Of a DNA stretch of 64,000 nt, positions 20,279 through 29,132 are shown in pieces (the first letter of the stretch is position 1; each line of letters begins with the position of its first letter). Origin of the DNA: Myxococcales bacterium. Its GTDB lineage: Bacteria; Myxococcota_A; Polyangia; Polyangiales; Houyiibacteriaceae. A program made the position numbers and the translations under genes. The stretch lies in the NCBI GenBank assembly GCA_029863605.1, contig JAOTVB010000005.1, positions 1 through 64,000 on the forward strand, read 5' to 3'. A model generated the notes under the pieces. It searched no databases. It worked only from the letters and a program-made list of their open reading frames with translations, and had not been told where the DNA came from.

Positions 20279-21166
20279 TCACGAGCCCCTGGGGAACCAT
20301 GGGACCAGCCCGCTCACTCGCTTCATGTGCTCGGCGTACTCGGGGCGTCGTTCGCAGCTGCGTCGGTCCATCCATGGGATCGACACCGTGACGAACATGA
20401 AAGTCATCGCGATCGGGCCGGCGATCGTCCAGTAGTTGGTCGGATCGGCGGCAAGGCCGAAGAGATACAAGCCCCACCAAAACGAGATCTCGCCGAAGTA
20501 GTTGGGGTGGCGCGAGTACTTCCAAAGCCCGGTCTCGAGGATCTCGCCTGGCTTCTTCACCTTCGCAAACGCCACCAGTTGTTGGTCGGCCACCATTTCG
20601 ATGCTGATCGCCCCCGCGGTGATGACCAGCGCAACCACATCGAGCCACGAAAGCGGCTGGGTGCCGACGACGAGCGCGACCCAGGCGCCCGACAGCCCGA
20701 GAAACACTTGCGCCGTCGGGAAGAGATGAATCCCGAAGAGGTCGCTGAAGAACCAAAGCTTCCCCGTCTTCTCCTTCATGATTTCGTAGCGCCAGTCGCT
20801 GTGGTGAAGCCCGGGCCAGCTCCGAGCCCAGTTGTAGGTGAGCCGCACGCCCCACCAGGTCACCAAGAACAGGACCGCACCCGCGCGAATCGGCTGGATG
20901 CCAATTTCGGCGTGAAAGGCCCAGTAGAATACGATCACGACCGGGGCGACCGACCAATACGCGTCGTACATGCTCGAGCACTTGAGACCGCGCGAAAAGG
21001 CGAAAATGACTAGCGTCGCGGCCACGTCGGCGATCGCCACGGTCCACAACGGAGACACGTCCTTCGGCACCAAGGCGACGGTGATCCACGCCACGACGAA
21101 GGCCGCAGCGTAGCCACCGGCCACCCAACCAAACGACGCTTGGCGGCTCCAGCGCGGCGCGGTCAT
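20279..21166 (-). CDS. DUF1295 / steroid-5-alpha-reductase-like membrane protein
   Basis: 295 aa with six to seven hydrophobic segments. The C-terminal part has GLWKYSRHPNYFGEISFWWGLYLFG, the signature of the DUF1295 and isoprenylcysteine methyltransferase-like group, and earlier GVRLTYNWARSWPG, with paired His/Asp residues. Members bind NAD(P)H or SAM and act on lipids or isoprenoids at the membrane; no activity is established for this branch. The gene lies 10 bases upstream of neither operon partner's start but directly after sodB on the same strand, so the two may be cotranscribed. The function is unassigned. Confidence 0.85.
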   Translation of the reverse strand: MTAPRWSRQASFGWVAGGYAAAFVVAWITVALVPKDVSPLWTVAIADVAATLVIFAFSRGLKCSSMYDAYWSVAPVVIVFYWAFHAEIGIQPIRAGAVLFLVTWWGVRLTYNWARSWPGLHHSDWRYEIMKEKTGKLWFFSDLFGIHLFPTAQVFLGLSGAWVALVVGTQPLSWLDVVALVITAGAISIEMVADQQLVAFAKVKKPGEILETGLWKYSRHPNYFGEISFWWGLYLFGLAADPTNYWTIAGPIAMTFMFVTVSIPWMDRRSCERRPEYAEHMKRVSGLVPWFPRGS

Positions 21167-21176
21167 GTAACCGGCC

Positions 21177-21755
21177 TCAGCCGCTCAGGTTCTGATTCGC
21201 GAAGTCCCAGTTGATCAGCGAATCGAGGAACACTTTGATGTAGTCGGGACGCGCGTTGCGGTAGTCGATGTAATACGCGTGCTCCCAAACGTCGATTGTG
21301 AGAAGCGGCTTGGCGCTCGACGTGATTGGCGTCTCGGCGTCTTTGGTCTTCTGGACGACGAGCTTGTCGCCCTCGGCCACGAGCCAGGCCCAGCCGGAGC
21401 CGAACTGGGTCGCCGCAGCGTTCGAGAACTCCTCGCGGAACTTGTCGTAGCTACCGAAGCTGCCGTTGATCGCGTCCGCGATTGCACCGCTCGGCGGGCC
21501 GCCCCCGCCGGGCGCCATGCTGTTCCAGTAAAAGGTGTGGTTCCAGACCTGAGCCGCGTTGTTGAAGGTCGCCCCACCGGCGCGGATGATGTCCACCAGG
21601 GACTTGCTCGCAAGGTCGGTACCTTCGATCGCCGCGTTCAGCTTCTTGACATAGCCCGCGTGGTGTTTGCCGTAGTGGTACTCGATCGTCTCGGCGCTGA
21701 TGTGCGGCGCCAGCGCATCTTGGGCCCACGGAAGGGCGGGCAGTTCGATCGCCAT
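21177..21755 (-). CDS. sodB: Fe-type superoxide dismutase
   Basis: 192 aa, the standard length. The metal-binding histidines and aspartate are in EYHYGKHHAGYV (His about 27), WNHTFYW (His about 74) and DVWEHAYYIDY (Asp and His about 158-162). The segment AATQFGSGWAWLV and the overall close match to E. coli SodB point to iron rather than manganese. It dismutes superoxide to oxygen and hydrogen peroxide in the cytoplasm. A good ribosome site (GGGAG) lies upstream of the ATG at 21755. The DUF1295 gene follows 10 bases downstream. The enzyme fits with rubrerythrin and ergothioneine genes elsewhere in the window as an oxidative-stress set. Confidence 0.97.
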   Translation of the reverse strand: MAIELPALPWAQDALAPHISAETIEYHYGKHHAGYVKKLNAAIEGTDLASKSLVDIIRAGGATFNNAAQVWNHTFYWNSMAPGGGGPPSGAIADAINGSFGSYDKFREEFSNAAATQFGSGWAWLVAEGDKLVVQKTKDAETPITSSAKPLLTIDVWEHAYYIDYRNARPDYIKVFLDSLINWDFANQNLSG

Positions 21756-21862
21756 GTCTATCTCCCTCGTCGCTTGGGGGCTGTCTCCTCAGCCCAGGGG
21801 CCTGTTCTACGGTCCCCGTGATCGTTGATCAACCCCTAATGCTTCATGCCTCGATGTTCAGG

Positions 21863-23482
21863 CTAAGCTGGAGCGAGCGGGGGCGTGTCCTCGTTGTCCG
21901 TCTCGGGTCCGCTCATCGGAATGAGCTTGGCTTCGCCGTCCTGGACGGCCCACGCAGCGCCAAAGAACTGCTCGCCTTCCTCGAGGGCCACGCCCTCAAC
22001 GAAAAACCAATCCGCTTGGGCTTTGTCCGCTTGAAGGTCAAGGACTAGGTACCCGCGGTTGAGATCCTCATCGAGGTACTGGATGTGCGGGCTGGCGCGC
22101 TTGAACGCTGCAGCGACGCCGCCGAGCTCAAAGGGTGAGGTAATCCCGGGGGCGACGAATTCGACTGCCACCGCGCCGTCTTGGGTTTCCGAATCGTAAC
22201 TTCCATCGCCGACAGTCACATCGATCGCCCAGGAGGAATGCACATCGCCCGTAATCACCGCGACGTTGGAGATGGCGTTATCCCGCAGGAAGCTCATCAG
22301 CCGTCCGCGCGAGCCGGGATAGCCGGTCCACTGGTCTTGGTTTGCAACGAGGTCCGGGCCCAAGTTCCAGATACCCATGACTACTTGGTTGCCGAGGACT
22401 TTCCATTTGGCGGTGCTGTTCGAGAGCTCCTGCTGGAGCCAGGCCTCTTGCTCGGAGCCGAGGATGTCGTCGGGGAGCGAAGGATCATCGGGCGGGTACG
22501 CGGCTGCTGTAGACTGTTCCTCCCGGCCCTCGATGCGGGTGTCGAGCATGATGATGTCGGCGAGGTCCCCGTACTTCAACGTTCGGTAAAGTCGCCGGTT
22601 CGCATTTTCGCGAATGGGGATCCACTCGAAGAAGGCTTGACGCGCAGCGGCGATCCGGACTTCCCAAGGCCCCTCGTTGTCCGGCGGGTCCGGGTTGTGG
22701 TTCTCGGCGCCCCCCATCCACGAGTTGTTGGCCGACTCGTGGTCATCCCAAACCACGATGAACGGCTGCTGACGATGTAGCTCTCGGAGGTCTTCATCGC
22801 GCCGATACTGGCTGAAGCGCATTCGGTAGTCTTCGAGCGTGACGGTCTCGGTCGGCGGCTCGAGCATCCGAAGTTGTTCCTCGGGCTCCGGGAAGGTTCC
22901 GTTGCCGTACTCGTAGAAGTAGTCGCCGAGATGAATCACCGCGTCGAGATCGGCGCGCGCCGCCATGTGGCGATAGGCATGGAAATACCCGAAGCCGTAG
23001 TTCGAACAGGAGCACACCCCAAAGCGAAGTCGGCTCGCCTGATCGCCCATGGGTGCAAGCCGCGTCCGCCCGACCGGGCTTTGTCTCCCCTGCGCGAAGA
23101 AGCGGTAGTAGTATTCACGGCCCCAGATGAGACCCGCGACATCGACTTTGACGGTGTAGTCCACCGACGCATCGGTGGTCTGCGTTCCCTGAGCGGTACG
23201 CTCGGTGAATTCCGGGTCGAGAGACATCTCCCACCAGACTTCGATCTCGCCGTCGGCCTCCGGACTAACCCGCGTCCAGATGATGACGCCGTCGGGCAAC
23301 GGGTCGCCGCTGGCCACACCGTGCTCGAACATCGTCGCGGGGCCGGGCGTGCCGGTAAACTCGTACTCGGGGAGCTCGGGAAGAGGCGGAAGGCCGCTGT
23401 CATCGCCGCAACTGCTCACCAACAGGGGGGTCAGGCCGGCTGCCCCCATCCCCTTGATCACGTCTCTACGACTGAATTTCAT
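21863..23482 (-). CDS. phoD: Alkaline phosphatase D (PhoD) family protein with Tat signal
   Basis: 539 aa from the ATG at 23482, chosen because it starts a Tat signal MKFSRRDVIKGMG and has an AGAGGA-type ribosome site just upstream. The signal ends with LLVSSCGDD, a lipobox, so the protein is probably a Tat-exported lipoprotein. The catalytic part has a PhoD N-terminal beta domain (FEHGVASGDPLPDGVIIWTR) and metal-binding motifs VIHLGDYFYEYG, VVWDDHESANNS and AVITGDVHSSWA. It would cleave phosphomono- or diesters at the cell surface using calcium and iron. It is divergent from phoX with 152 bases between, containing a perfect dyad. No other phosphate genes are nearby. Confidence 0.92.
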   Translation of the reverse strand: MKFSRRDVIKGMGAAGLTPLLVSSCGDDSGLPPLPELPEYEFTGTPGPATMFEHGVASGDPLPDGVIIWTRVSPEADGEIEVWWEMSLDPEFTERTAQGTQTTDASVDYTVKVDVAGLIWGREYYYRFFAQGRQSPVGRTRLAPMGDQASRLRFGVCSCSNYGFGYFHAYRHMAARADLDAVIHLGDYFYEYGNGTFPEPEEQLRMLEPPTETVTLEDYRMRFSQYRRDEDLRELHRQQPFIVVWDDHESANNSWMGGAENHNPDPPDNEGPWEVRIAAARQAFFEWIPIRENANRRLYRTLKYGDLADIIMLDTRIEGREEQSTAAAYPPDDPSLPDDILGSEQEAWLQQELSNSTAKWKVLGNQVVMGIWNLGPDLVANQDQWTGYPGSRGRLMSFLRDNAISNVAVITGDVHSSWAIDVTVGDGSYDSETQDGAVAVEFVAPGITSPFELGGVAAAFKRASPHIQYLDEDLNRGYLVLDLQADKAQADWFFVEGVALEEGEQFFGAAWAVQDGEAKLIPMSGPETDNEDTPPLAPA

Positions 23483-23571
23483 CGTTCCTCTTCCAGGCCG
23501 TTTCAGGGCGTTTCTCGCATACCAATGCCGGTTCCACGGTGACGGTGCTGTGACACCGATTGCGAACCGGT

Positions 23572-23591
23572 GAGGGAGACTATTCTCCCTC
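23572..23591. promoter_or_regulatory. Perfect 8-4-8 dyad in the phoD-phoX intergenic region
   Basis: GAGGGAGA, four bases, TCTCCCTC: a perfect 20-bp inverted repeat, 43 bases before the phoX ATG and 89 bases before the phoD start codon. Its symmetry, position and lack of a following T tract suggest an operator for a dimeric regulator or a leader hairpin on the phoX side. It does not look like the enterobacterial pho box. Confidence 0.5.
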
Positions 23592-23634
23592 GGCAAAAAG
23601 TGCTACCGAATGGTTGAGAGGCTGAGCGAGTTTC

Positions 23635-24840
23635 ATGTCGACCCACAAACCAGCAGCGATTCTCGATCCGACGCGCCGTCGGTTTCTCCAGAAGAGCTTT
23701 GTCGGCATGGGCTGGGTGCTGTCAGGCGGTGTGTTGACCCGCTGCGGCGGCAGCGAGGCGGTCTCCGTGAGCAACATCGGGGCGCTTGGGCCTTTGCAGG
23801 ACCCCGACGAGAACGGCATTCGACTTCCGGAGGGCTTTACGAGCCGGGTCATCGCACGCTCTAGCGAGCTGGTCGGAGCCTCGGGACACCGGTGGCACCC
23901 CGCCCCCGATGGCGGCGCCGTCTTCACGACCGAGGATGGAGGATGGATCTACGTGTCCAACGCCGAGGTGCCCGCCGAGATCGGCGGCGGGGCGAGCGCC
24001 GTTCGGTTCTCCGCAGATGGCGAGATCGTCGATGCGTACTCGATTCTCAGCGGGACGAGCATCAACTGCGCCGGCGGTCCGACACCTTGGGGCACCTGGC
24101 TCTCCTGCGAGGAGAAGGACGACGGACGCGTCTGGGAGTGCGACCCGCTGGGGAACACCGCCGCGGCCGTGCGACCCGCACTCGGGGTATTCCAGCACGA
24201 GGCGGTCGCCATCGACCTCGACGGCCAAGTCGCCTACCTGACCGAAGACGTGGGTGACGGCGGCTTCTATCGGTTCTTGGCGGATGCAAATGCTGACCTA
24301 ACCGCCGGGGAGCTACAGATTGCGGAAGTGGTCGGCGAAGGCCCCGAGGGCATCATCGAATGGCGAACGGTGCCCGACCCTTCGGCCAGCTCCACACCGA
24401 CGCGCCGACAAGTCTCTTCGAGCACTGCTTTCGACGGCGGCGAGGGGATTTGGTACTACGGCGGCATCGTCTACTTCTCGACCAAAGGCGACAACCGGAT
24501 TTGGGCTCACGAGACACGCAGCTCCGCTCTTTCGATCCTCTACGACGCCGCAACTTCGAGCACGCCGATCCTGACCGGCGTCGACAACGTCACGGTGTCG
24601 CCGGCCGGCGATGTGCTGGTGGCGGAGGACGGCGGCAACATGGAAATCGTCGCGATCGCCGCCGACGGCGCGATAGCTCCTCTCCTTCAGGTGACCGGAC
24701 AGGACGAGTCCGAGATTACCGGCCCTGCGTTCGGACCCTCCCTCGACAGGCTCTACTTCAGCTCTCAGCGCGGGACCTTGGGGTTCATCACGGGCGTCGA
24801 CGGGGTCACCTACGAGGTGAGCGGTCCGTTCTTCAGCTGA
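23635..24840 (+). CDS. phoX: PhoX/DUF839 family phosphatase with Tat signal
   Basis: 401 aa. The N-terminus contains the twin-arginine motif TRRRFLQKSFVGMGWV and a hydrophobic stretch ending VLTRCGGSE, so the protein is exported by Tat and possibly retained. The body is the DUF839/PhoX beta-propeller type: GGSEAVSVSN near the mature start, LPEGFTSRVIARS, YVSNAEVPAEIGGGASAVRF, CAGGPTPWGTWLSCEE (about 142), GVFQHEAVAIDLDG, AYLTEDVGDGGFYRFL and TKGDNRIWAH. PhoX enzymes are calcium- and iron-dependent alkaline phosphatases. This protein is shorter than classical PhoX (about 600 aa) but has the family's core order. It is divergent from phoD, implying a shared phosphate-scavenging role. Confidence 0.82.
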   Translation: MSTHKPAAILDPTRRRFLQKSFVGMGWVLSGGVLTRCGGSEAVSVSNIGALGPLQDPDENGIRLPEGFTSRVIARSSELVGASGHRWHPAPDGGAVFTTEDGGWIYVSNAEVPAEIGGGASAVRFSADGEIVDAYSILSGTSINCAGGPTPWGTWLSCEEKDDGRVWECDPLGNTAAAVRPALGVFQHEAVAIDLDGQVAYLTEDVGDGGFYRFLADANADLTAGELQIAEVVGEGPEGIIEWRTVPDPSASSTPTRRQVSSSTAFDGGEGIWYYGGIVYFSTKGDNRIWAHETRSSALSILYDAATSSTPILTGVDNVTVSPAGDVLVAEDGGNMEIVAIAADGAIAPLLQVTGQDESEITGPAFGPSLDRLYFSSQRGTLGFITGVDGVTYEVSGPFFS

Positions 24841-24846
24841 AGCCTG

Positions 24847-26013
24847 CTAGCCGAATGTTCTAGCAAGAAGGGCAAACGTCCCCACCGCTGCGCCGGCGAA
24901 CGAGGTGACGTCGACCACGGCCGTCCCGAGGTCACGACGACGGAGCCATTGGAGCAGCGGCCACAGAGCGGCGACGATCGCGAGCTGACTGAGCTCGACC
25001 CCCACGTTGAACCCGAAGAGCGCCCCGACGAGCTGGGTGCGTGGCAGCTCTTGCTCTAAGAGAACGCTCGAGAAGCCGAGCCCGTGAACAAACCCAAAGA
25101 GGCACGCGATGACCCACCGCAGCCGTCCGGTACCGGCGAAGGTGTGAAGAAGGCCGAAGTAACAGGCCGTGAACAGAGCCAACCCCCAGAACGCGGAAAG
25201 CCCACCGGCCCACGCGCTCGCGACGAAGATGCCGAGCGCGGCCGAGATGACGAGCCTTCCCGCACGCGTGCGCTCTGCACCGGCATTTTCGAGCGCAACG
25301 ACCAAGATCGACGCCGCGATGATCGCTTCGACCGCTCTCGGGTGCGGCACGACCGCGCCGAGCGAGGCCGCAGCCAGGGTGACGCTGTGGCCGACCGTGA
25401 AGCCCGTCACCAGCACGACCACCTCGCGGAGACGGAGCGCGATGACGATCAAGAGAAAGAGAAACGCAAGGTGGTCCCAGCCTGTGAGGATGTGCTCGAC
25501 CCCGAGGCGTAGATACTCCGCGATGCCGGTTTCGTGGGCGCCTTCCGCAGAGGCGACCCGAGCCTTCGGCGAGGTGGACGAGAGGACCAAATCCATCGAT
25601 GTATTCCCAACGATCGTCGCGAGATGGACGTGGTTGGTCAGCGATCGAAAGAGGCCGCTATAAAGGGCCGTGGGCGACGCGTCACAACGAACCCGCCATT
25701 CGACCCGCATCCAGCCACGCTCTGCGGGAAGAAGGGCGCCGCTCGCCTCTATCGGCTCGCAAGGTCGATCATCGGTCTCCAGGAACAGATGATTCTGTAG
25801 ATAGCGGAACACTGTCGTCGGTTCGACCGGGGGTTCGGCGGCGTCTTGGAGACGCCGGAGCGAAGTGAGATCGAGCCAGCTGACCTTCACCTGGGCGAGC
25901 GCGCCACCGTCGAGAAGGGTCCACTTCGAGTACGAGACGCTCTTTTGATGGGCGGCGGCTCCCGAAGGAACGGCCGCCAGTCCAAGCGCAGCGATCAGCA
26001 CCCAGGCCTTCAC
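24847..26013 (-). CDS. HupE/UreJ-like membrane protein with exported N-terminal domain
   Basis: 388 aa, GTG start overlapping the stop of the previous gene (GTGA). A Sec signal (residues 1-21, ending GAAAHQ) is followed by about 145 residues outside the cytoplasm, then seven or more membrane helices. The helical part has LGVEHILTGWDHLAFLFLL (near 171), a HupE/UreJ signature with His residues for metal, then VTGFTVGHSVTLAAA and FGFVHGLGFSSVL. HupE/UreJ proteins are thought to move nickel for hydrogenase and urease, but no hydrogenase or urease gene is present here. This longer form is the last gene of a three-gene cassette with a SurA-like chaperone and a DUF3604 protein. Confidence 0.88.
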   Translation of the reverse strand: MKAWVLIAALGLAAVPSGAAAHQKSVSYSKWTLLDGGALAQVKVSWLDLTSLRRLQDAAEPPVEPTTVFRYLQNHLFLETDDRPCEPIEASGALLPAERGWMRVEWRVRCDASPTALYSGLFRSLTNHVHLATIVGNTSMDLVLSSTSPKARVASAEGAHETGIAEYLRLGVEHILTGWDHLAFLFLLIVIALRLREVVVLVTGFTVGHSVTLAAASLGAVVPHPRAVEAIIAASILVVALENAGAERTRAGRLVISAALGIFVASAWAGGLSAFWGLALFTACYFGLLHTFAGTGRLRWVIACLFGFVHGLGFSSVLLEQELPRTQLVGALFGFNVGVELSQLAIVAALWPLLQWLRRRDLGTAVVDVTSFAGAAVGTFALLARTFG

Positions 26014-26759
26014 GGCCGAACCTCGACGCGAATGTCGCTTCGCTTACGCGCGGCGTCGAGAAAATCCCGCACAGCGGCCTCGCCTCGGGCCCGAAGGTAG
26101 GCGGCCTCCACGGCCTCGCGTGCTTCTTCGAATGGAGCCACTCCACCCCGGCGACGTTCCAGGAGGGTCACGACGAGATCGCCAGACGGCGTTCCGATCG
26201 TCGAGGAGGTCCCGACCTCGAGCTCGGTAATCTCGCTGGCTGCGGTGGGGCCGAGGCGTTGCTCGATCTCTTTGGCGAGCAGAAACCCATCAGGCAATGG
26301 AATGGCCGAGCCTTCGACGTCGATGCGGTAGAGCGGATTTCGCTCGAACCGAAAGCTCTCGCTTTGATAAAACTCACGAAGCTCCGACTCGCTTGCCATC
26401 CGGGCGTCGTCCTCGGCCTGCCGCACGAGAAAGTCGATCATCGCGGTCGTGAGCTGATTTCGGATCTGTGGGTCGCGTTCGTGCAAACCGAGCTCGATCG
26501 CACGGTCGATGAGCAGCTCCTGATCGACCAATCGATCGAGGACGCGCTGCCGGTCTTCTGGGCGGAGTTTGCCGTCTTTTCGGTCGCCAGCGACCGCCGC
26601 AAGGGCCTGCTCGTAGGCCTCGTGGGAGATGGGTCGCTCGTTCACCCAGACCGCTACATCGGCGACCTGCACCGTACGATCGGGAACGCGAGCGATGTAG
26701 AACACGGCCGCAGCCGCCCCAACCAGCATCCCGCCGGCGAGCAGCCGCGGTCGCGTCAT
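26010..26759 (-). CDS. SurA/PpiD-like peptidyl-prolyl isomerase-family protein with degenerate isomerase domain
   Basis: 249 aa from the ATG at 26759, which overlaps the stop of the DUF3604 gene in ATGA. A single N-terminal membrane anchor (about residues 7-23, GGMLVGAAAAVFYIA) is followed by a SurA-N-type helical domain (VNERPISHEAYEQALAA, LDRLVDQELLIDRAIELGL). The C-terminal region lies where a parvulin domain is expected. It lacks the usual parvulin motifs, so it may be a chaperone without isomerase activity. It stands in the middle of the DUF3604 - this gene - HupE-like cassette with 4-base overlaps at both ends, so it probably helps fold or stabilise its partners outside the cytoplasm. 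Confidence 0.82.
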   Translation of the reverse strand: MTRPRLLAGGMLVGAAAAVFYIARVPDRTVQVADVAVWVNERPISHEAYEQALAAVAGDRKDGKLRPEDRQRVLDRLVDQELLIDRAIELGLHERDPQIRNQLTTAMIDFLVRQAEDDARMASESELREFYQSESFRFERNPLYRIDVEGSAIPLPDGFLLAKEIEQRLGPTAASEITELEVGTSSTIGTPSGDLVVTLLERRRGGVAPFEEAREAVEAAYLRARGEAAVRDFLDAARKRSDIRVEVRP

Positions 26760-28966
26760 GGCGTCTGACCGGCCAGGAGAAAGATCGGCGACGACCACGC
26801 GCGCTCCTCGCTATCGACGAGGCAATCATCATCCTCGCCGGTGCGAAAGTTGCCGTAGCAAGGCTCGCACAACCCCCCGGCGCAACGAAGCCCGCCGCCA
26901 TTCACGGTCGGCGTCGGCTCTTGAATGGCGCGGACGTAGTAGAGCATGTCGCGACTGAGCTCATCGTAAGACGGGTCTTCGAACTTGACGGTACAGAGCT
27001 CTCGATCTTCGGGACACGGAATCGTGAGCCACGGGTCTTCGATGAGCTCGGCGATCGGCTCGTCCTCGGCGCGCTGACGCTGAATGCGAATCACCTCGAT
27101 GCGCGTGATGCGGCGGCGCCGGTCGCCAGGGTTGTAGCATTCCCCCGCACAGATGCTCTCGACCCGCTCCGGACCGAGCGTCTCGATCACGTCAGGCGGG
27201 CAGCCTGGCTTTTGCACGAATGAGCCCGCGGCGCGAACCTCGAACTTGGGCGTCTCGGAGAATCCGAGCTCGCTTCCCATGTGTCGAACCCCTTCGGGCC
27301 CGTTTAGCAAATCGAACCACAAAAGAATCCTGTCGCCGGAGGTGCCATAGACGTCGCGCTCTTGCATCGCTTCCCAGATCGCCTCCCGCGATCGGGCCGT
27401 GGCGTGCACGGCGACGAGCCCACCCGTGAGGAAGAACGAAGCTTGCCGCTCCATCCACATCAGCTCGAAGGGCGGACGCTCCATGAGCTTGTCGATCGTG
27501 AACGAAACCGACTCAGGATCGGCTTCACCGCGGTCCCCGAACACCGCCTTTCGCCACGATTCGTCGGGGGCACCCCGTGCATCGGTCATTTTCCGGCGTG
27601 CGAACTCTTTGTAGCCTGTCCCTGGGCGTGCGCTGTGATTGTCGCTCGAAGCGATGAATCCCATCGTGGCGTGCCGCGGGTCGTCGGGGTTTTCGAAGTC
27701 GCCCTTGGCCAACATGTACTGGACCGAGCCAGCCGGGCGATATTGATAAGCCGGCAGGAAGCAATCGGTGCATTGGCCGCAATCTTTCCAGTCCGGAACA
27801 TCCTCACCTGGCAATGTGACGTGCCCCGCTAGGGCTACACGCAGATAGTCGGCCCGTGCTTTCTCGACGCGGTGTTGGCACGCATCGGAGCTGGGGTCTT
27901 CGCATCGCTCTCGAATCACTTCACCCGCACGCCAACAACATGCTTCGTAACCTTCGACCGGCTCGGGACACTCGAGACCATCGTCGGTGACGATCGCAGA
28001 ACGAAAATCGCGGTGCTCCTCGGAGTTGCCGTGACCGGAGAACACCTCGACTAGCCGTTGGAGCTCCGGATCGTCGAGGTCTGCACGAAGCTGCTTGTCC
28101 CAGGTGTAGCCGAGCGGGGTGTAGAAGCCCCAAGTCGTGCCGTGTGGAATCACGATCGTGTCTAGGCCCCACTCGTTGAGCTTTTTGAAAAGCACGTCCG
28201 GGCTTCCCGCTCGCTCGCGGCACGTAGGCGGTAGCTCTTTGGTATCGTAGCCCTCCGGGCAGATCGGGTAGCGCCCGTTCTCGCGAATGTGCCGAGCGAA
28301 ATCGAGATAGCTCTGCTGATTGGGGAAGGCGCGAGCGGGGATCGTCAGCAACGGCCAGAGCGCGCTGAGCTTCGAAAACGCGCGCGCTGCGATCCCTGGC
28401 GCGGCGATCGGCCGTGCGGGGAGCTGATCCTCGGTGTCGTACTGGAAAATGACGTTCTTGTGACCGTAGTGGGTTTCGGGGGTGAGGCCGACTTGAGTCC
28501 ACTCGAATCCGGTGAAGGCGATGGTGTCCGGTTGGTCGCCGTCGGCGTTCACGGCATTGCACTGACGGACAGAATCCTTGATCATCGACCATGTGCGAGG
28601 GTTCAGCGCCTCGGCATGGTCGGTCAGGGCGTAGAAGTCGAGCTGAGAGCAGAAACGGGCGAAATCACATGCGTCCGCCGGTGGATGCACGCCTTCGCCG
28701 CCCATCAGGGGAAGGCTCCACATGAATGCGTCGACCGAGAGCGTCGTATGGACATGCAGATCACCGAACAGAATTCGGTTATCGGTGTCAGGTACCGTCC
28801 CTTTTTGAGCCCGGATCCGAGCAGCAACGAGGTCCGGCGCCAGCGCGACGACGGCAATCTCGCCATCGACCTGTGATTCGGCGCCCCCGTACACGACCCA
28901 AAACGCGAGAACCAGAAGAACCAGCCCAAGAACGACACTAAGACAGCCTTTTTTCCACCAGCCCAC
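26756..28966 (-). CDS. DUF3604 (PHP-like metallohydrolase) membrane-anchored protein
   Basis: 736 aa from the GTG at 28966, which begins one membrane anchor (WWKKGCLSVVLGLVLLVLAF). An ATG at 29080 is in frame but would run through the 53-bp repeat and has no ribosome site. The mature part faces outside and has the DUF3604 order: LFGDLHVHTTLSVDAF (PHP-like H-x-H), FYALTDHAEALN, TFTGFEWTQ-like FTGFEWT, HGTTWGFYTPLG, EVFSGHGNSEE, and IASSDNHSARPGTGYKEF. Cys pairs (DCGQCTDCF, CAGECYNPG) suggest disulfides. It is probably a metal-dependent hydrolase of unknown substrate. It heads the cassette with the SurA-like and HupE-like genes and is divergent from the polysaccharide locus. Confidence 0.85.
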   Translation of the reverse strand: MGWWKKGCLSVVLGLVLLVLAFWVVYGGAESQVDGEIAVVALAPDLVAARIRAQKGTVPDTDNRILFGDLHVHTTLSVDAFMWSLPLMGGEGVHPPADACDFARFCSQLDFYALTDHAEALNPRTWSMIKDSVRQCNAVNADGDQPDTIAFTGFEWTQVGLTPETHYGHKNVIFQYDTEDQLPARPIAAPGIAARAFSKLSALWPLLTIPARAFPNQQSYLDFARHIRENGRYPICPEGYDTKELPPTCRERAGSPDVLFKKLNEWGLDTIVIPHGTTWGFYTPLGYTWDKQLRADLDDPELQRLVEVFSGHGNSEEHRDFRSAIVTDDGLECPEPVEGYEACCWRAGEVIRERCEDPSSDACQHRVEKARADYLRVALAGHVTLPGEDVPDWKDCGQCTDCFLPAYQYRPAGSVQYMLAKGDFENPDDPRHATMGFIASSDNHSARPGTGYKEFARRKMTDARGAPDESWRKAVFGDRGEADPESVSFTIDKLMERPPFELMWMERQASFFLTGGLVAVHATARSREAIWEAMQERDVYGTSGDRILLWFDLLNGPEGVRHMGSELGFSETPKFEVRAAGSFVQKPGCPPDVIETLGPERVESICAGECYNPGDRRRRITRIEVIRIQRQRAEDEPIAELIEDPWLTIPCPEDRELCTVKFEDPSYDELSRDMLYYVRAIQEPTPTVNGGGLRCAGGLCEPCYGNFRTGEDDDCLVDSEERAWSSPIFLLAGQTP

Positions 28967-29011
28967 GCGGCTGCAAGCATAGAGCGCGGACGACGGGAGT
29001 CCAAACAGTTG

Positions 29012-29064: not shown

Positions 29065-29132
29065 GGCGCCCGCCGGCCATCTTGTGGGTCGCGGCTCGCC
29101 TGTGCTACCTCAGAACCGGGCGGGGAGCTCAT

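Follow-up and report, generated by a model that had tools for sequence, protein, structure and literature searches.

Why should genes for a DUF3604 hydrolase, a SurA-type folding protein and a HupE-type permease be joined head to tail by overlaps of four bases? We addressed this question for a cassette on contig JAOTVB010000005.1 of a Myxococcales bacterium (assembly GCA_029863605.1), of which positions 1 to 64,000 were analysed (hereafter, the window). Re-examination of the sequence yielded the same three open reading frames (ORFs), strands, coordinates and overlaps (Table 1) as a first-pass annotation, in which the genes had been taken for one functional set in the envelope: a metal-dependent hydrolase, its chaperone and a metal transporter. 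Each of the three families is known by name. A search of the open-access literature, the scope of which did not include subscription journals or preprints, found no description of the three-part system and no functional report on DUF3604, which was named only in a transposon table. The linkage of the genes, its recurrence in other genomes, the pairing of subtypes, the protein folds and the conservation of metal-site residues were computed here. We describe the cassette as a widespread envelope system, seemingly undescribed and related to the anglerase-type HupE systems.

From a scan of 85,000 species genomes, we took the best 80 HupE loci by similarity to the window protein, and searched every ORF of these loci (1.40 Mb) with profiles of the three families that had been derived from relatives of the window. 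A SurA-type gene was directly adjacent on the same strand to 33 of 81 HupE genes, mostly with an overlap of exactly four bases, and DUF3604 lay within 3.5 kb in 20 of these 33 SurA-HupE pairs. Among HupE genes flanked on each side by 3.5 kb or more of sequence, DUF3604 was adjacent to 19 of 28 genes with SurA versus 0 of 35 without it (Fisher test, 1e-9). Seen from the partners, 34 of 36 SurA-type matches and 22 of 24 DUF3604 matches in the 1.40 Mb adjoined a HupE gene. The trio was found in Alpha- and Gammaproteobacteria, Myxococcota, SAR11 and rhizobial megaplasmids, and the carriers included Bradyrhizobium, Qipengyuania, Erythrobacter, Hyphomonas, Gemmobacter, Colwellia, Moritella, Pseudomonadaceae, Porticoccaceae and Pelagibacteraceae; a Binatota metagenome-assembled genome (MAG) contained DUF3604-HupE at a contig edge. 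Rhizobial plasmid records annotate the three genes together as 'DUF3604 / peptidylprolyl isomerase / HupE/UreJ family protein'. Gene orders varied among D-S-H, H-D-S, S-H-D and arrangements with a divergent D (D, DUF3604; S, SurA; H, HupE), the order tabulated for locus L058 arising artefactually from an ORF called too long. Across lineages, these loci had no other neighbour in common; apparent clusters reflected an enoyl-CoA hydratase-like family and SAR11 synteny. The first-pass annotation had proposed that other genomes be searched for the same gene order, and co-occurrence beyond close relatives is what we found.

Two features of individual lineages were also observed. In SAR11 loci L068, L073, L075 and L088, DUF3604 is divergent from SurA-HupE, and an alkyl-sulfatase-like gene of the metallo-β-lactamase fold lies downstream, as one does near the Colwellia locus L103. 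In Caulobacterales (L063, L066 and L078), a c-type cytochrome gene (Pfam-confirmed in L066) stands upstream of the SurA-HupE pair, which is a possible hint of copper/oxidase assembly.

We also examined 57 related genomes, chosen by kinship alone and without regard to the cassette genes. DUF3604 was located within 4.5 kb of 49 of 109 HupE_UreJ_2 genes, compared with 0.7 expected at random placement; the 49 include one DUF3604 gene placed by hand (L058, whose match fell below the E-value cut). The D-S-H order with its overlaps was present in most same-genus genomes where the contig permits and in a second genus of the family (L058); another family (L056) yielded a fragment of the cassette. The window genome itself contains three HupE_UreJ_2 genes, all accompanied by DUF3604 and a peptidylprolyl isomerase (PPIase): that of the window, that of C30 (D-S-H, L042) and that of C24 (H-D-S, L041). 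It also contains DUF3604 genes lacking these partners. One could argue that such clustering is inherited synteny or chance with no functional meaning, since 39 of the 49 adjacent pairs come from one genus, and are accordingly not independent, and since a wider block (genes for a PhoX-like protein, PhoD, superoxide dismutase and DUF1295) is also syntenic within the genus. However, 10 more pairs lie outside the genus, and the set recurs across phyla with changed gene order, with no other neighbour kept and with its subtypes paired. The count of 49 pairs against 0.7 already contradicts this explanation, to which we give almost no credence.

The members of each set also vary together. Among 25 triads, pairwise distances correlated at 0.95 for HupE and SurA, 0.85 for SurA and DUF3604 and 0.82 for HupE and DUF3604; none of 2000 permutations gave values as high, and relatedness alone inflates such correlations. 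Two divergent types of triad, long and short, were distinguished. Both occur in the window genome (apart) and in Stagnimonas L079 (adjacent), and in these genomes long proteins go with long partners and short proteins with short ones. A quickly built HupE tree had one clade (support 96) in which all 22 rows had SurA or DUF3604 as a partner; the same held for 20 of the 23 rows in the window's group and for none of the 45 remaining rows, the deep branches around the window's group being weakly supported. The recurrence across lineages, the changed gene orders and the two divergent types strongly support the idea of one functional set in the envelope.

The association extends to whole genomes. 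Of the 12 genomes with no DUF3604 next to the SurA-HupE pair, 7 had strong DUF3604 genes elsewhere, some of them in further short-type triads (L149 and L151), compared with 1 of 24 genomes sampled by HupE without SurA; the Fisher value for this contrast mixes loci and genomes and is indicative only. DUF3604 genes often outnumber HupE-SurA pairs in a genome, as expected if the pair represents maturation factors shared by several client enzymes. A prediction that the DUF3604 genes of Mangrovicoccus would be located beside a SurA-HupE pair failed, both genes standing alone.

These comparisons give rise to a first real rival explanation, namely that SurA and HupE form a self-contained metal-uptake pair in which SurA folds the outer domain of HupE, DUF3604 sharing no more than its regulation with them, such as a response to a common starvation signal. 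Many of the pairs (13 of 33) have no DUF3604 close by, the HupE-SurA correlation is the highest of the three, and the exported HupE domain has a candidate disulphide between Cys85 and Cys110, neither of which varies within the window's group. On the other hand, DUF3604 adjoins HupE only where SurA is present, its association at the genome level is strong, and SurA-DUF3604 pairs without a nearby HupE exist (L145 and a second pair in L103). We consider the self-contained pair improbable, but a serious competitor. The same figures bear on the earlier designation of the SurA-type protein as the chaperone of the hydrolase, which has become less clear because SurA is tied to HupE at least as tightly as to the hydrolase, in the correlations and in the 13 DUF3604-less pairs.

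The hydrolase matched PF12228 at 94.6 bits (curated cut-off 20.4) in three separate stretches. It consists of an N-terminal membrane anchor, a PHP-type metallohydrolase domain and a C-terminal β-sandwich. In addition to the HxH motif, D79, D116, H117, E155, H169, H275, D442 and H444 are candidate ligands, and the candidate PHP metal-site residues were invariant in an alignment of 23 hydrolase homologues. The structure model (pLDDT 75.7) matched the PHP structures 3e38 (Z 17.4) and 2anu (Z 15.3), matches below a Z of about 8 being treated as background; a sequence search of the PDB with the hydrolase gave chance matches only, and the CehA/McbA metallohydrolase model NF038032 scored 21.2 bits, below its curated threshold of 80. 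Because the metal-site residues are invariant and the model resembles PHP structures, the protein is probably an active metalloenzyme, in agreement with the metal-dependent hydrolase first proposed. Read from the sequences, DUF3604 proteins of the window type have a membrane anchor, and many of the short type have a lipoprotein-like N-terminal signal. Elsewhere in the same genome (L039:5759-7942), a gene closely similar to that of the window hydrolase (a paralogue, 1089 bits) stands alone, without SurA or HupE neighbours.

The SurA-type protein matched SurA_N_3 (PF13624) at 26.2 bits, just below the cut-off of 27.2, and contains no complete parvulin domain (Table 1). In nine homologues elsewhere, Rotamase_2 scored 26-68 bits across most of its length, and eight of these scores exceeded the cut-off of 27; alignment with full-length homologues indicated that the middle of the parvulin domain is missing in the window's genus. 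Since most homologues elsewhere carry Rotamase_2, we regard the window protein as a parvulin-type PPIase with an eroded domain; the absence of clear parvulin motifs noted at first holds for the window's genus and not for most homologues elsewhere. With the middle of the domain missing, catalysis of proline isomerisation by the proteins of this genus is unlikely, and a chaperone role is possible. Two loci showed irregular SurA genes. In L119:8820-8880, the first part of the SurA ORF looks like the C-terminus of DUF3604 (VTERTYSSPIWYSPKSQ), which suggests that a DUF3604 gene upstream has decayed or been frameshifted, and in Porticoccaceae (L067:8547-9932) two successive SurA-like ORFs precede HupE, as tandem genes or through a frameshift.

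The window HupE matched PF13795 (HupE_UreJ_2) at 143 bits (curated cut-off 24.5), and its model had a pLDDT of 84.7. The HX5DH motif has a role in nickel transport; other histidines, too, are invariant in the 90 HupE_UreJ_2 proteins compared. With cleavage read from the sequence, His was the first residue after the signal peptide throughout the window's group (23 of 23 proteins), in 16 of the 22 short-group proteins and in 41 of the remaining 45. A sequence search of the PDB with HupE gave no match, so that a fold search was needed. VIA-align matched the exported domain to ZrgA (8f1b, Z 12.1), PA4063 (7amx, Z 11.1-11.2) and Ang-1 (9gce, Z 10.1); all other Foldseek and VIA rows were treated as background. 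Copper-bound Ang-1 (9GCE) was aligned over 121 residues at 3.1 Å (model residues 22-157 against chain residues 1-158; Foldseek probability 1.00), with His22 of HupE placed at His1 of Ang-1. The only histidines of the exported domain are His22, 75, 128, 130 and 160, with no His-rich stretch. Ang-1 binds copper, held by His1, with a dissociation constant of 74 nM and nickel with one of 220 nM, and 'anglerase' domains have been proposed to feed metal to the permease (PMC12537917). Indirect support for the suggested metal transporter comes from the N-terminal His, from the resemblance of the exported domain to Ang-1 and ZrgA and from the conservation of HupE motifs. HupE of the window type contains a hydrophobic insertion, about 45 residues long, in the membrane domain (HupE residues about 246-290; window 25144-25278), which is missing in most other HupE_UreJ_2 proteins.

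We next considered whether HupE supplies nickel to a hydrogenase or urease in the classical HupE/UreJ manner, its neighbours being incidental. The family name favours this explanation, as do the second-best binding of nickel by Ang-1 (PMC12537917) and a single NiFe hydrogenase large subunit encoded on another contig of the window genome, in which no urease was found above the cut-off. The first-pass statement that hydrogenase and urease are lacking was accordingly correct for the cassette part of the window but, as regards hydrogenase, not for the genome. However, among 16 triad genomes, one had a NiFe hydrogenase, four had a convincing urease and 11 had neither, and the linkage is instead to DUF3604 and SurA. 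With neither enzyme adjacent and 11 of 16 genomes lacking both, we rejected hydrogenase or urease supply as the general role, and we consider nickel supply of this kind very improbable also for the cassette.

We tentatively favour, at somewhat less than an even chance, the possibility that the cassette encodes a unit of the envelope that handles metal and matures exported PHP hydrolases. A transition metal would be captured at the N-terminal His of the exported HupE domain and handed on to the membrane channel of HupE or received from it; the SurA/parvulin-type protein, itself anchored in the membrane, would fold its exported partners, that is, the outer domain of HupE and the hydrolase; and the unit would serve the anchored or lipoprotein DUF3604, whose metal site would have to acquire its metal outside the cytoplasm. 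We infer joint action of the three proteins, metal supply as their link and a foldase role for SurA. Several observations weigh against this unit. Characterised HupE proteins import nickel into the cytoplasm (stated in the part of PMC3923141 that cites Brito 2010), which by itself does not metallate a periplasmic enzyme, and the direction of HupE transport is accordingly the weakest link. The parvulin domain is eroded in the window's genus; 6 of 22 short-group HupE proteins begin with Asp instead of His; and no metal regulator, riboswitch or metalloenzyme was consistently linked in the loci examined. In addition, 13 of the 33 SurA-HupE pairs have no nearby DUF3604, no DUF3604 was found in 5 of the 12 genomes with such a pair (mostly draft MAGs), and many DUF3604 genes stand alone. 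A more specific form of the maturation unit is doubtful: an anglerase-type permease and a dedicated foldase may, outside the cytoplasm, assemble exported PHP hydrolases of one family and supply them with metal, with metal moving outward or sideways through HupE rather than inward and a few pairs serving many hydrolases per cell, including in SAR11.

The known direction of transport leads to a second real rival, in which the enzyme serves the transporter. DUF3604 would hydrolyse a periplasmic organic or phosphorylated metal complex, the Ang-type domain would catch the ion, HupE would import it and SurA would act in folding only. This scavenging is consistent with the known importers of the HupE family, with the resemblance of the exported domain to the zinc-uptake protein ZrgA and to Ang-1 (PMC9820375, PMC12537917), with the SurA-HupE pair as the more constant core, and with the persistence of the triad in streamlined SAR11 genomes (L068, L073, L075 and L088). 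However, no metallophore, outer-membrane receptor or metal regulator was consistently linked in the loci examined, and many genomes have several DUF3604 genes per HupE. We judge metal scavenging unlikely, if less so than the self-contained pair.

The features of the cassette are collected in Table 1. In the promoter-like element, TATGCT, the spacing and the distance to the start are kept in the window, L046, L048, L049, L052 and L054 (the first hexamer of L046 being CTGGAC instead of TTGGAC), and the DNA upstream of the hydrolase is otherwise more divergent among congeners. A general consensus promoter scan gave no match in the cassette, this element included, so that the evidence for a promoter is its conservation. 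Because the element fits the GTG at 28966, we placed the start of the hydrolase there and not at the upstream ATG at 29080; the short distance from the element to the GTG suggests a leaderless transcript. No Rfam riboswitch match was found in the window or in seven loci. Directly downstream of the cassette (window 20279-24840) are genes for DUF1295, an Fe/Mn superoxide dismutase, PhoD and a PhoX-like protein, a block that stays beside the cassette across the genus (L046, L047, L049, L050 and L052) and was not seen in the other genus (L058).

Table 1. Features of the three-gene cassette, in window coordinates
Feature	Positions	Strand	Basis
DUF3604 gene, 736 aa, 'long' subtype	26756..28966	-	PF12228 match, PHP residues, structure matches
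SurA-N/parvulin-type folding protein gene, 249 aa, membrane-anchored	26010..26759	-	PF13624, partial Rotamase_2, alignment
HupE_UreJ_2 permease gene, 388 aa, with N-terminal exported metal-binding-type domain	24847..26013	-	PF13795, model
Promoter-like element TTGGAC-N17-TATGCT, 9 nt 5' of hydrolase GTG	28976..29004	-	conservation in congeners
Hydrophobic membrane anchor, hydrolase residues about 8-26	28889..28945	-	sequence; helix 2-33 in model
HxH motif (His71, His73), predicted hydrolase metal site	28748..28756	-	alignment
ATGA overlap (CC-ATGA-CG), hydrolase stop and SurA start	26756..26759	-	sequence
Parvulin (Rotamase_2) remnant, SurA residues 163-215	26115..26273	-	profile positions 68-121 of 121, 20 bits (cut-off 27)
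GTGA overlap (CC-GTGA-AG), SurA stop and HupE start	26010..26013	-	sequence
HupE signal peptide, residues 1-21, expected cleavage between AAA and H (AAA/HQKS)	25951..26013	-	sequence
Exported Ang/ZrgA-like domain, residues 22 to about 160, His22 first	25534..25950	-	structure matches, alignment
HX5DH motif (His174, Asp180, His181) of permease	25471..25494	-	invariant in 90 HupE_UreJ_2 proteins

The linkage provides DUF3604, a family without an assigned function, with two partners and predicts that it is a metal-dependent exported enzyme, and it suggests a concrete, testable role for those HupE_UreJ_2 proteins that are found away from hydrogenase and urease. The set is present in abundant marine bacteria (SAR11; SAR86 has DUF3604 and a SurA-HupE pair) and on the megaplasmids of rhizobia, in which the construction of deletion strains is feasible.

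Among known systems, the anglerases, in which an Ang-1 or Ang-2 domain is fused to HupE/UreJ-2 (PMC12537917; PDB 9GCE), share with the window HupE a His directly after the signal peptide, an exported β-sandwich domain and the same PF13795 membrane domain. The anglerase neighbours given there are DUF4198, indigoidine-like and PfkB proteins for Ang-1 and metallophosphatases and DUF916 for Ang-2, whereas DUF3604 and PPIase are not named. The triad HupE was placed apart from the sampled Rhodobacteraceae and actinobacterial HupE in our tree, which did not contain the proteins of PMC12537917, and short-group HupE, unlike the anglerases, sometimes has Asp for His. ZrgA and PA4063 (DUF2796), which are periplasmic zinc-binding proteins, were the best structural matches to the exported domain, and a disulphide is conserved in ZrgA homologues, for which Cys85 and Cys110 of HupE are the candidate pair. 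ZrgA acts as a separate protein within an ABC system, has a His-rich loop and binds zinc through His35, His37 and Glu66 (PMC9820375), whereas in HupE the domain is joined to a secondary-type permease and lacks such a loop. The HupE/UreJ nickel permeases (PF04955; Rhizobium leguminosarum HupE) have the HupE-type membrane domain and HX5DH in common with the window protein, which differs in its PF13795 match, in its exported domain and in that triad genomes mostly lack hydrogenase and urease. PHP-type phosphoesterases (3e38, BVU_3505; 2anu, TM0559) and CehA/McbA share the fold and the HxH / DH / E / H / DxH metal-site pattern with the hydrolase, but DUF3604 is exported and anchored, and has a C-terminal β-sandwich and large insertions. 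Finally, the cassette SurA-type protein shares a membrane anchor and a putative SurA-like N-domain with PPIases of the SurA, PpiD and EpsD types, and in most cassette relatives also the parvulin domain; unlike them, it is linked to one gene set, and its parvulin domain is eroded in the window's genus.

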